This document shows, one piece after another, positions 32,689-39,589 of a DNA stretch of 64,000 nucleotides. Within the stretch, counting starts at the first letter, position 1. Every line of letters starts with the position of its first letter. Source of the DNA: Clostridia bacterium (lineage in GTDB: Bacteria; Bacillota; Clostridia; Christensenellales; Borkfalkiaceae); the NCBI GenBank assembly GCA_017505465.1, contig JAFVPE010000030.1, positions 62,001 to 126,000 on the forward strand. Direction: 5' to 3'. The translations under genes were made by a program, and so were the position numbers. The notes under the pieces were generated by a model. The model ran no database searches. It saw only the letters and a program-made list of their open reading frames with translations, and had not been told where the DNA came from.

Positions 32689-32713
32689 AGAGTAAACGAA
32701 GAATCTGCTACGA

Positions 32714-32767
32714 AATGCGGCGTTGCACTGCGTTTTTCTCGCTCGTTTACGTCAAGTAAACTCCCGT
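32714..32767 (+). repeat. Dispersed repeat family A, copy 1
   Basis: A 54-nt sequence repeated exactly 104 nt downstream. It contains a hairpin GTTTAC-GTCAA-GTAAAC (32745-32761). A diverged relative lies at 38375. Confidence 0.93.
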
Positions 32768-32817
32768 CGAAAAGCCTCGCGCGTCTTGCCTTTCTTGCAG
32801 CTTGCTTCGTTTACGAG

Positions 32818-36011: not shown

Positions 36012-36920
36012 ATGATTACGGATAAGCTCATCGACGGCATTATTGCAATGCAAAACCCTACCTGCGTAGGCTTGGATACGTTGTTCGACTATCTTCCCGA
36101 CGATATGAGAGAAGGGGCAAAGACGTTTGACGACGTTGCGGAAAGAGTGTTTGCATTCAATAAGAAGATTATTGATAACGTTTACGATATTGTTCCTTCC
36201 GTAAAGGTACAAATCGCATATTATGAAATGTACGGCGTGGCAGGTATGAAGGCATACTACGAAACGCTCAAATACGCGGCGGAAAAGGGACTCGTCGTTA
36301 TTGCGGACGCAAAGCGCAACGACATCGGCTCTACGGCGAGCTGTTATGCTAAGGCATTCCTTGGCGAAACGCAGGTAAACGACGGCTTGATGAAGGCATT
36401 TCCTTCCGATTACGTAACGGTAAACGGCTATCTTGGTTCGGACGGGATCGTACCGTTTGTGGAGCAGTGCGAAAAGAACGATAAGGGTATTTTCGTGCTT
36501 GTTAAGACGTCTAACCCTTCGGGTGCGGAAATTCAAAACATGGTACTTGACAACGGCATGCCTATGTACGAATACGTGGGCGGCTTGGTGGAAAAGTGGG
36601 GGGCAAGCACGATTGGCAAATACGGCTATTCGGCAGTAGGTGCGGTTGTTGGCGCAACGCATCCCACGGAAGCGGCACGTCTTCGTGAAGTATTGCCGCA
36701 TACCTTCTTCCTGATTCCCGGCTATGGCGCGCAGGGCGGCAACGCAGAAATGCTCAAGAGCTGTTTTGGCGCAGACGGCCTTGGCGGTGTAGTAAACAAT
36801 TCGCGCGGTATCTTGTGCGCATACAAGAAAAACGGCGGCACATACTACGACGCAGCACGTGCGGCGTGTATTGCGATGCAAAAAGACTTGTCGAGCGTCA
36901 TCGGCAAAATGGGCAAATAA
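36012..36920 (+). CDS. pyrF: Orotidine-5'-phosphate decarboxylase (type 2)
   Basis: PyrF removes CO2 from OMP to give UMP. The 302-residue protein is of the longer type 2 family, with VGLDTLFDYLP near the start, SVKVQIAYYE, the catalytic Lys-Asp-Lys-type motif ADAKRNDIGSTA, the phosphate loop FLIPGYGAQGG and NNSRGILCAY. RBS AAAAGGAG is upstream. A 670-nt non-coding spacer rich in small palindromes follows before pyrK, which is unusual within an operon. Confidence 0.96.
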   Translation: MITDKLIDGIIAMQNPTCVGLDTLFDYLPDDMREGAKTFDDVAERVFAFNKKIIDNVYDIVPSVKVQIAYYEMYGVAGMKAYYETLKYAAEKGLVVIADAKRNDIGSTASCYAKAFLGETQVNDGLMKAFPSDYVTVNGYLGSDGIVPFVEQCEKNDKGIFVLVKTSNPSGAEIQNMVLDNGMPMYEYVGGLVEKWGASTIGKYGYSAVGAVVGATHPTEAARLREVLPHTFFLIPGYGAQGGNAEMLKSCFGADGLGGVVNNSRGILCAYKKNGGTYYDAARAACIAMQKDLSSVIGKMGK

Positions 36921-36925
36921 CAGGC

Positions 36926-37400
36926 AGTCGAGAAACTCAGTTTCTCGTGGATTCCAAAGGCGAAGCCTTTGTAGGTGTGGCAAAGCCACAAAAATATGCC
37001 CCCAATAAGCAAGCTCTGCTTGCGCACAGTAGGAAGTCGAGAAACTCAGTTTCTCGTGGATTCCAAAGGCAAAGCCTTTGTAGGTGTGGCAAAGCCACAA
37101 AAATATGCCCACAATAAGCAAGCTCCGCTTGCGCACAGTAGGAAGTCGAGAAACTCAGTTTCTCGTGGGGCGCAGGGGCAACGCCCCGCAATGCAAGCCT
37201 CAAATAAGCAAGCTGCGCTTGCGTAACTACCGCGAAAGCGTTGAATCGCCGTAAGGCGAAAGCAACCTATAATAAGCAAGCTCCGCTTGCGCACAGTAGG
37301 AAGTCGAGAAACTCAGTTTCTCGTGGATTCCAAAGGCGAAGCCTTTGTAGGTGTGGCAGAGCCACAAAAATGTGCCCCAAATAAGCAAGCTCCGCTTGCG
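36926..37400 (+). repeat. Tandem micro-hairpin repeat array in the pyrF-pyrK spacer (family B)
   Basis: Four units start with AGTCGAGAAACTCAG at 36926, 37035, 37144 and 37302 (spacing 109, 109 and 158 nt). A typical unit holds four perfect small hairpins with 3-nt loops, e.g. in unit 1 at 36930-36946, 36955-36971, 36976-36990 and 37009-37023. In unit 3 two hairpins are replaced by a different one (GGGGC-AAC-GCCCC), so the array looks modular. Since 109 is not a multiple of 3, a conserved reading frame is excluded. Confidence 0.92.
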
Positions 37401-37409
37401 CACTATGTC

Positions 37410-37590
37410 ATAAGGCATCTACGCAACGAAAGTTGCGCCGTTTATATCCCAACAAAGCAAAACGCAGTTTTGCGTCACCACCGCGAAAGCGGTCCATCGC
37501 CGTTTGGCGAAATCAAACCCCAAACAAAAGCAACCGGTAGGTTGCGCAACTACCGTAAAACGGTGAATCGCCATTTGGCGAAAAGGAAAC
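37410..37590 (+). repeat. Series of unrelated micro-hairpins before pyrK
   Basis: A run of short perfect dyads follows the array: GCAAC-GAAA-GTTGC, GCAAAAC-GCA-GTTTTGC, ACCGC-GAAA-GCGGT, TCGCC-GTTT-GGCGA, GCAACC-GGTA-GGTTGC, ACCGT-AAA-ACGGT and TCGCC-ATTT-GGCGA. Several have GNRA-type tetraloops (GAAA). The last ends just before the pyrK ribosome site. Confidence 0.88.
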
Positions 37591-37594
37591 AACT

Positions 37595-38350
37595 ATGAAA
37601 GATTACGTTGCAACCATTATCAAAAACGAGCAAATTGCCGAAAACGTCTATGCGGTCACCTTTGACCTTGGTGAAGAAGCGAAGGTGCGCTGTGGACAGT
37701 TCGGCAATATTTCCGTCGGCGAAACTCATCTTTTGCGCCGCCCGATTGCCATTTGTAAAGCGGAAGGGAACGAGGTTACCTTTTGCTACCAAATCAAGGG
37801 CGAAGGTACGCAAAAATTAAAAACAATGGGGGCAGGTACGAAATTAAACGTACTTATGCCGCTCGGCAACGGCTTCTACGTGGAAGAAGAGGAAAAGAAA
37901 GTGGCGCTCGTTGGCGGCGGCGTCGGCGTGTTCCCGCTTATTTCCGTCTTGCGTGCGTACGCATCCACGAAAGAAATTTCCGCCTATATCGGTTATAGAA
38001 ACAAAGCGGCGGTTTGCGGCGTGGAAGAGTTCGCAAAAGCGCAAAAATTCCTGCTCGTAACCGACGATGGCAGCTACGGCTCGCAAATGAACGCCGTACA
38101 AGCATTTGAAGCGGATCTTGCAAAGGGCAACCGCCCTGACGTGGTGCTTGCATGCGGCCCTACGCCTATGCTCCGCGCTTTGAAAACGCTCGTGGAAAGA
38201 GAAAATCTCAACTGCTACGTATCTTTGGAAGAACGTATGGGTTGCGGCATCGGCGCGTGCCTTGTCTGCGTATGCAATATGACGGATGGCAAGCGCGCAA
38301 GAGTTTGTAAGGACGGCCCCGTATTTAACAGTCGCGACGTTTCTCTTTAA
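37595..38350 (+). CDS. pyrK: Dihydroorotate dehydrogenase electron-transfer subunit
   Basis: PyrK carries FAD and a [2Fe-2S] cluster and passes electrons from PyrD to NAD+. The 251 residues show the FAD site RRPIAICKAEG, the NAD-binding glycine loop VGGGVGVFPL, and the C-terminal cluster ligands in MGCGIGACLVCVC followed by a fourth Cys (VCKDGPVF). AAAAGG lies 7 nt upstream of the ATG. It is the partner of the PyrD encoded next, so this organism has the heterotetrameric class 1B enzyme. Confidence 0.95.
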   Translation: MKDYVATIIKNEQIAENVYAVTFDLGEEAKVRCGQFGNISVGETHLLRRPIAICKAEGNEVTFCYQIKGEGTQKLKTMGAGTKLNVLMPLGNGFYVEEEEKKVALVGGGVGVFPLISVLRAYASTKEISAYIGYRNKAAVCGVEEFAKAQKFLLVTDDGSYGSQMNAVQAFEADLAKGNRPDVVLACGPTPMLRALKTLVERENLNCYVSLEERMGCGIGACLVCVCNMTDGKRARVCKDGPVFNSRDVSL

Positions 38351-38374
38351 ACGCATATCTGCGTCGCAATACTG

Positions 38375-38450
38375 TGTTGCGCTATGTTTTTCTTGCTCGT
38401 GTACGGGTAGTACACGCCCATCGAAAAGCCTCGTGCGCTTTGTCTTGCTC
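38375..38450 (+). repeat. Diverged copy of repeat family A in the pyrK-pyrD spacer
   Basis: TGTTGCGCTATGTTTTTCTT and what follows aligns with 32722 onward. The hairpin here is GTGTAC-GGGTA-GTACAC (38399-38415) against GTTTAC/GTAAAC in the other copies: one T-A pair has become G-C on both sides, a compensatory change. The flank TCGAAAAGCCTCG is also shared. Confidence 0.8.
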
Positions 38451-38503
38451 GCATCTCTACGTTTGGTGGAATACTTAAAAAAGAACGAATAAGGAAAAAG
38501 AAT

Positions 38504-39421: not shown

Positions 39422-39428
39422 CGATAGG

Positions 39429-39555
39429 GAGTCGAGAAACTTTCCAAAGGCAGAGCCTTTGGCGGTGTGGCAGAGCCACAAAAATAGCCCATAAAAGCAA
39501 GCTTTGCTTGCGCTATAACCGCGCAAGCGGTCCATACGACGAAAGTCGTCCAATA
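39429..39555 (+). repeat. Partial micro-hairpin repeat (family B) in the pyrD-pyrE spacer
   Basis: It begins GAGTCGAGAAACTTTCCAAAG, which matches a family B unit lacking the second half of the first hairpin, then keeps the CAAAGG-CCTTTG, TGTGGC-GCCACA and GCAAGC-GCTTGC type hairpins. It ends with ACCGC-GCAA-GCGGT and ACGAC-GAAA-GTCGT. Confidence 0.88.
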
Positions 39556-39589
39556 AACTACAATAAAAACCGATAGGAGAGAAAATATT

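Follow-up and report, generated by a model that had tools for sequence, protein, structure and literature searches.

In the window, i.e., the stretch of 64,000 nucleotides from a Clostridia bacterium analysed here, the pyrF-pyrK spacer is most probably a composite copy of a mobile repeat family which is restricted to one genus, non-autonomous, modular and built of short hairpins, any effect on pyrK being secondary; we assign to this reading a probability of about 0.7. For this family, referred to as ‘type A’, we observe directly (i) dispersed copies, (ii) a modular grammar, (iii) orthologous gaps that are empty or nearly so, (iv) paired substitutions in the stems, and (v) a preference for C-G pairs closing the loops. 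From its dispersed copies, the very uneven counts between species, the empty orthologous gaps, the occurrence in both orientations and the nesting we infer that type A is a non-autonomous element, which would be moved in trans by some enzyme.

Modular architecture of the spacer and of type A

The genome holding the window (G000; 1.66 Mb, 41 contigs, 82.5% complete) has uncultured Clostridia as relatives, mostly from ruminant and deer hindgut according to the sequence records. The window carries pyrC, pyrF, pyrK, pyrD and pyrE in this order, with the identities that a previous, sequence-only reading of this DNA had given to them. The frames on both sides of the 674-nt spacer (Table 1) are intact; gene borders are from a simple codon-usage caller, and gap limits may be off by a few codons. 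A mechanical search for perfect stems of at least 5 bp with loops of 3-4 nt yielded 24 hairpins comprising 56% of the spacer, which is thus indeed filled with short perfect hairpins, as had been noticed. Folding of the region as RNA, one of the checks proposed along with that observation, gave -256.3 kcal/mol when compared with -193.7 (sd 6.6) for shuffled sequences (z = -9.5). The tandem units of 109 nt are likewise real (36922-37168; 2.3 copies, 97% match), heads recurring within the spacer at intervals of 109, 109 and 158 nt, and so is the swapping of single hairpins described before: unit 3 has GGGGC.AAC.GCCCC where the other units have the CAAAGGC and TGTGGC hairpins. The complete order is H1 H2 H3 T1, H1 H2 H3 T1, H1 G T1 T2 T3 T1, H1 H2 H3 T1 T2 T3, T1 T2 T3, T1 T2 T3, in which a few hairpins are imperfect and hence outside the count of 24. 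A likely pyrK ribosome-binding site, AAAAGGAAACAACT, lies directly 3' of the last tail module.

Table 1. Parts of the hairpin arrays in the pyr operon and the neighbouring genes (positions in the window)
Feature	Position	Strand	Remarks
pyrF, orotidine-5'-phosphate decarboxylase	36012..36920	+	TIGR02127; upstream neighbour of array; frame intact
Composite type A hairpin array, whole pyrF-pyrK spacer	36921..37594	+	Head-first along transcription
Unit 1	36924..37032	+	GCAGT tag (GAAGT variant), H1 CGAGAAAC.TCA.GTTTCTCG (36929-36947), H2 CAAAGGC, H3 TGTGGC, linker, T1 GCAAGC
Unit 2	37033..37141	+	Tandem copy of unit 1 (109-nt period)
Unit 3	37142..37299	+	H1, GGGGC.AAC.GCCCC replacing H2-H3, T1, imperfect T2, T3 TCGCC.GTAA, second T1
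Unit 4	37300..37402	+	H1, H2, H3, linker GCCCCAAATAA, T1 (37385-37399)
T2 and T3	37403..37454	+	T2 ATGTC.ATAA.GGCAT (one T-G wobble); T3 CGCAAC.GAAA.GTTGCG (37422-37437)
Repeated tail module	37457..37510	+	T1' GCAAAAC.GCA (37457-37473), T2' ACCGC.GAAA (37480-37493), T3' TCGCC.GTTT (37497-37510)
Repeated tail module	37530..37581	+	T1'' GCAACC.GGTA (37530-37545), T2'' ACCGT.AAA (37552-37564), T3'' TCGCC.ATTT (37568-37581)
pyrK-type dihydroorotate dehydrogenase electron transfer subunit	37595..38350	+	Downstream neighbour; 36 relatives found with pyrK
Second type A copy, shorter, pyrD-pyrE spacer	39422..39589	+	H2, H3, T1, T2 kept; H1 broken by deletion (CGAGAAAC joined to TTTCC)

When every array in 441 kb of G000 is read together with arrays in relatives, a common plan emerges, consisting of one head (the tag GGAAGT and three hairpins) and a variable number of three-hairpin modules with a GCCCCAAATAA-type linker. 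Read head-first, the head is GGAAGT, H1 (CGAGAAAC.TCA.GTTTCTCG), tggatt, H2 (CCAAAGGC.AGA.GCCTTTGG), cgg, H3 (TGTGGC.AGA.GCCACA) and aaaatAGCCCCAAATAA, and the repeated module that follows is T1 (GCAAGC.NNN.GCTTGC), gctacc, T2 (ATGCC.GTAA.GGCAT or ACCGC.GAA.GCGGT), ca, T3 (CGCAAC.GAAA.GTTGCG or TCGCC.GTAA.GGCGA) and ccatAGCCCCAAATAA. Variants carry the GGGGC hairpin in place of H2-H3, or have no H2. Most copies are single-headed, while double-headed copies with inverted ends occur at C26:4806/5037 and C31:38030/38259. The longest stretch which the window array has in common with other loci, about 210 nt, opens with unit 4 (87% identity to G000:C30:98155-98369 and 85% to G000:C14:4798-5002). 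In a single array of a relative (L077; G034:C2:32500-33300), the H1 loop is TCA in some units and its reverse complement TGA in others; inversion of the whole palindrome would explain this mixture, and one substitution also suffices.

Dispersal and orthologous gaps

A search of the genome assembly and its relatives, proposed along with the suggestion that the spacer might belong to an unnamed family of palindromic elements, found copies in both and bears this suggestion out. In G000, the spacer matches 42 places (E 0.001 or better). The head motif GAAGTCNAGRAACTCAGTTYCTNG, the free positions of which carry no complementarity requirement, is present in 17 of 57 genus genomes, with 53 copies in G023, 37 in G000, 29 in G073, 25 in G006, 9 in G011, 8 in G019 and none in most others (0 copies in 40 of the 57). 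An order-wide sample of 396 genomes includes four of the genus, among which only G000 was positive, and the motif is absent from the other 392. Arrays of at least four hairpins number 27 in 377 kb of G000 contigs, which were selected for carrying matches; genus loci for which pyrK was the sole selection criterion have 9 in 275 kb, and other families 1 in 354 kb. Intergenic hairpins of at least 6 bp reach 5.9 per kb in the array-carrying G000 contigs, whereas coding DNA has 0.94 per kb and shuffled sequences have 0.67. Type A copies adjoin many unrelated genes and are found in both orientations, convergent gaps included. Rfam 15 gave no family above the gathering score for the window, and a literature search among open-licence papers revealed no earlier description of type A. 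A phage origin was rejected, there being no type A match among phage records or viral contigs.

The sequence-only reading had also considered that a structured stretch of mRNA might set the expression of pyrK-pyrD, and the presence of two arrays in the pyr operon of G000 might at first sight favour such an operon-specific leader. However, the pyrF-pyrK gap is at most 40 nt long in 23 of 36 genomes (often 0-4 nt), the pyrD-pyrE gap is at most 40 nt long in 24 of 35, and type A also flanks the unrelated genes mentioned above. Longer pyr gaps hold type A in the window and in locus L018, a hairpin element with GTGAATT linkers in L001 and L128, and a third element in L010 and L014; among long pyrF-pyrK gaps, other sequence or unrelated elements are in fact commoner than type A. 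A dedicated pyr leader, largely refuted by the comparison of gaps, is thus very improbable. An assembly artefact or chance is something we give hardly any credence: the sequence is indeed a metagenome-assembled genome and some copies lie at contig ends, but genomes of 17 species, assembled independently, show the same grammar within contigs and at different loci, and the hairpin excess is far above that of shuffles. Between pyrK and pyrD of several relatives (L002, L003, L009, L022, L029) there is a reading frame of about 1.1 kb, which by eye appears glycerate kinase-like.

The comparison of gaps extends beyond the pyr operon. Array-filled gaps of 486, 328, 805, 267, 275, 813, 311 and 145 nt have orthologous gaps of 3, 18, 10, 20, 6, 40-55, 47-58 and 2-12 nt, respectively; one further ortholog of the 145-nt gap measures 112 nt, and for a few other arrays the orthologous gaps are also long. 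The nearest relative of G000 is 82% identical in DNA. The array head commonly lies about 1-15 nt past the upstream stop codon, as is expected if insertion is tolerated only in the interval that separates this codon from the following ribosome-binding site. Type A elements would have been inserted into intergenic gaps, among them tight intervals of this kind within operons, and the arrays would subsequently grow by tandem duplication and exchange of modules. The separation of pyrF and pyrK translation by an untranslated, structured spacer would be a by-product.

Hairpin folding, strand and putative mobilization

The sequence-only reading held that selection acts on structure, and two kinds of evidence agree with this view. 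When heads were collected by tag and loop alone, with no stem imposed, 96.7% of the cells of the alignment pair, as opposed to at most 52% with the partner slid, helix 2 having a lower paired share because tetraloops in place of the triloop put part of it out of register. Both sides of the stem changed in 97 cells, compared with 24.8 (sd 5.4) in shuffles. Among 63 sequences, for example, the second pair of H1 is G-C 37 times, A-U 20 times, C-G 5 times and G-U once, and pairing is perfect also in genomes with just one to three copies. Moreover, in the 303 distinct perfect hairpins of head-anchored regions the loop is closed by C-G in 254 cases (84%; T-A 20, A-T 18, G-C 11), whereas coding DNA controls show 337 of 1363 (25%), each pair type being close to 25%; the outer stem pair of the same 303 hairpins is mixed (101, 70, 69, 63). 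Paired stem changes and C-G loop closing point to selection acting on the folded hairpin, the closing pair being the strongest single sign.

The loops follow a rule broader than the GNRA type noted before. Sizes of 3-4 nt and the occurrence of GNRA loops hold, but triloops are commoner than tetraloops, and the pattern on the head-first strand is G-N-N-A: distinct tetraloop hairpins comprise 40 GNRA, 23 GNYA (63 G-N-N-A altogether), 13 TNNC and 36 others. As this rule is strand-specific, the head-first strand is probably the one that folds. The hairpins would be needed by the element itself, either as folded single-stranded DNA or as RNA. The motif d(cGNNAg) is also among the stable DNA tetraloops, and the GNYA loops would be in keeping with it. 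Thermodynamics favour a C-G closing pair both in GNRA-type loops of RNA and in d(GNA), a family of DNA triloops (PMC5815330). The closing rule therefore tells us that some single strand folds, but it does not discriminate between RNA and DNA.

It is pertinent to ask if the arrays serve the host as mRNA elements for post-transcriptional control, i.e., for protection of 3' ends, translational uncoupling or graded expression of operons, as has been proposed for REP sequences between operon genes. The start of many arrays shortly after the upstream stop codon and the GNNA loops on the head-first strand are in line with such a role, and so is the skew of terminator-like sites in the window array (37107-37545), where the antisense (minus) strand has eight of the nine and the sense strand the remaining one; this fits read-through in sense, although the skew is partly a matter of composition. 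Single mismatches likewise include more G-T than A-C (33 versus 16 for all hairpins; 16 and 21 in shuffles), but the difference is not significant for distinct hairpins (19 versus 15). A strong bias in orientation, apparent from 32 versus 17 counted hairpin clusters, which are not independent, was dropped since one count per co-directional gap gives 21 head-first and 13 opposite (p = 0.23). Considering further that the same gene pair may have an array in one genome and none in another, that copies also reside in convergent gaps and that 40 of 57 genus members have no head motif, we regard a function in host RNA as unlikely. Quite unlikely, too, is maintenance of the stems by mutation only, that is, by quasipalindrome correction through intrastrand template switching as the DNA is replicated, structural selection being absent. 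Nearly all stems are perfect, few intermediates exist and the type of a pair can flip (G-C to C-G, A-U to U-A), an indication that a stem may change in a single step, and template switching in replication has been documented to produce such one-step changes in RNA genes, where they are linked to stable short loops (PMC8794818). Yet this process does not obviously predict the closing-pair rule or the strand-specific GNNA loops, it leaves the conserved, dispersed linkers and modules unexplained, and coding DNA of the same genomes exhibits no enrichment in hairpins. As template switching alone does not readily explain the closing pair, we consider it a helper rather than the cause: for a mobile, hairpin-built family, template-switch repair may assist in keeping the stems perfect. 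From the terminator-like sites one may also note that a reversed array could halt transcription while a head-first array is read through.

Candidates for the enzyme that would mobilize type A were sought in the array-rich genomes, which are 73-94% complete, so that the absence of a transposase candidate is weak evidence. Y1 profiles gave no match in G000, G023, G006, G011, G019 and G004, all incomplete genomes, and a broken copy in G073; of the 57 genus genomes, 20 have a match above the cut-off, mainly those devoid of the head motif, and RAYT/Y1 was accordingly rejected. Reverse transcriptase (RVT_1), with no match in G000, G023, G073, G006 and G011 and one in G019, was rejected for its absence from the richest genomes, and IS110 for lack of any match in the array-rich genomes G000, G023, G006 and G011. 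A search for Y2/IS91 yielded zero matches, controls included, and therefore speaks neither for nor against this type. An autonomous partner flanked by heads was also discarded, the genes between neighbouring heads being housekeeping-like by inspection, with no transposase seen.

Other repeat families and known repeat systems

Type A is not the only repeat family at these loci. ‘Type B’, a second hairpin family, has a constant 7-nt linker, GTGAATT, between hairpins with mutually unrelated stems, the linker being inverted (AATTCAC) in the second half; it is found at L001:3777-4000, at L081:19776-20000 and in the pyrF-pyrK and pyrD-pyrE gaps of L128. Its 33 linker-bounded perfect hairpins compare with 1.25 expected, and to find linkers conserved but stems free is opposite to what is usually seen. 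‘Type C’ (about 150 nt, AACGNCGTATATGCGTCGCA...CTTGCTCGCATCTNCGCCGTTTT) is located at 38351-38503 of the window, in the pyrK-pyrD gap, and at 32703-32812; several relatives also carry it between their pyr genes. ‘Type D’ (about 117 nt) nests in hairpins of types A and C: it lies within a type A H3 at G000:C16:14590-14705 (L042), within H1 at L012:4768-4853, and also occurs at G000:C26:8772-9134 (L045), a pattern suggesting that it inserts into hairpin loops or close to them.

It is tempting to speculate, albeit with considerable doubt, that these elements represent a class of mobile repeats which conserves linkers, tag and a fold rule (perfect stem of 5-8 bp, loop of 3-4 nt, C-G closing), while the stems are freely rewritten, probably by template switching; that unrelated families (A and B) obey the same rule would point to one shared hairpin-reading machinery. 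Type A in itself provides several hundred natural, perfect micro-hairpins under a visible rule, with stem sequence free but fold and closing pair not, which permits direct tests of selection versus template switching as the source of stem perfection and of DNA versus RNA as the folding molecule. It is also evident that essential operons of this genus tolerate repeated insertion, by which non-coding, structured DNA of as much as 0.8 kb comes to lie between genes, and type A would point to some mobilizing enzyme.

Among known systems, we place type A with the interspersed palindromic repeats, as a novel variant that is neither REP nor BOX. REP and BIME sequences carry a GTAG or CGTC tag beside a perfect hairpin with a loop of 2-5 nt, show complementary stem variants and occur as single, paired or grouped units, as described in a survey in which no Firmicutes are listed (PMC3733652). 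Type A shares with them a short tag beside a perfect hairpin, complementary stem changes, an intergenic location and dispersal as single, paired and grouped units, and many intergenic copies of short palindromes are present, but as strings of different palindromes. However, its tag is GGAAGT: no GTAG or CGTC tag was found beside type A palindromes, the heads carrying GAAGT and GTAG being present in some flanks only. As neither this tag nor the RAYT association is found, no RAYT having been detected in the array-rich, though incomplete, genomes, type A is not filed as REP. CRISPR arrays combine identical repeats with unique spacers of equal length, whereas type A units lie 109, 109 and 158 nt apart and their content is common throughout. 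Like MITEs, type A is small, non-coding, base-paired and devoid of a transposase gene; some copies have inverted ends, being double-headed, most are single-headed, and a partner transposase was not found.

The initial verdict that the spacer is unlike REP, BOX or CRISPR elements holds for REP and CRISPR but just in part for BOX. The BOX elements of Streptococcus pneumoniae, boxA-(boxB)n-boxC, are composite, intergenic, predicted to fold as RNA and probably non-autonomous (PMC3049150), and type A likewise combines a unique end module with a variable number of internal modules. In this comparison, which is based on described architecture, type A differs in belonging to another taxon, in having modules that are strings of 5-8 bp hairpins, and in that no match of terminal repeats to a resident transposon has been shown. 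In the organelle DNA of Volvox carteri, short palindromic repeats with loops of 3-5 nt, thought to be selfish, fill most of the intergenic space, lie in either orientation and are nested within each other (PMC2670323), so that small-loop hairpins filling intergenic DNA, both orientations and nested insertion are features in common with type A. The Volvox palindromes belong to an algal organelle, however, and mostly have a fixed TAAA/TTTA loop, and the portions of that paper drawn on here report no head-plus-module grammar with conserved linkers. Structurally, type A is then nearest to the Volvox organelle palindromes and, for its modular architecture, to the BOX elements.
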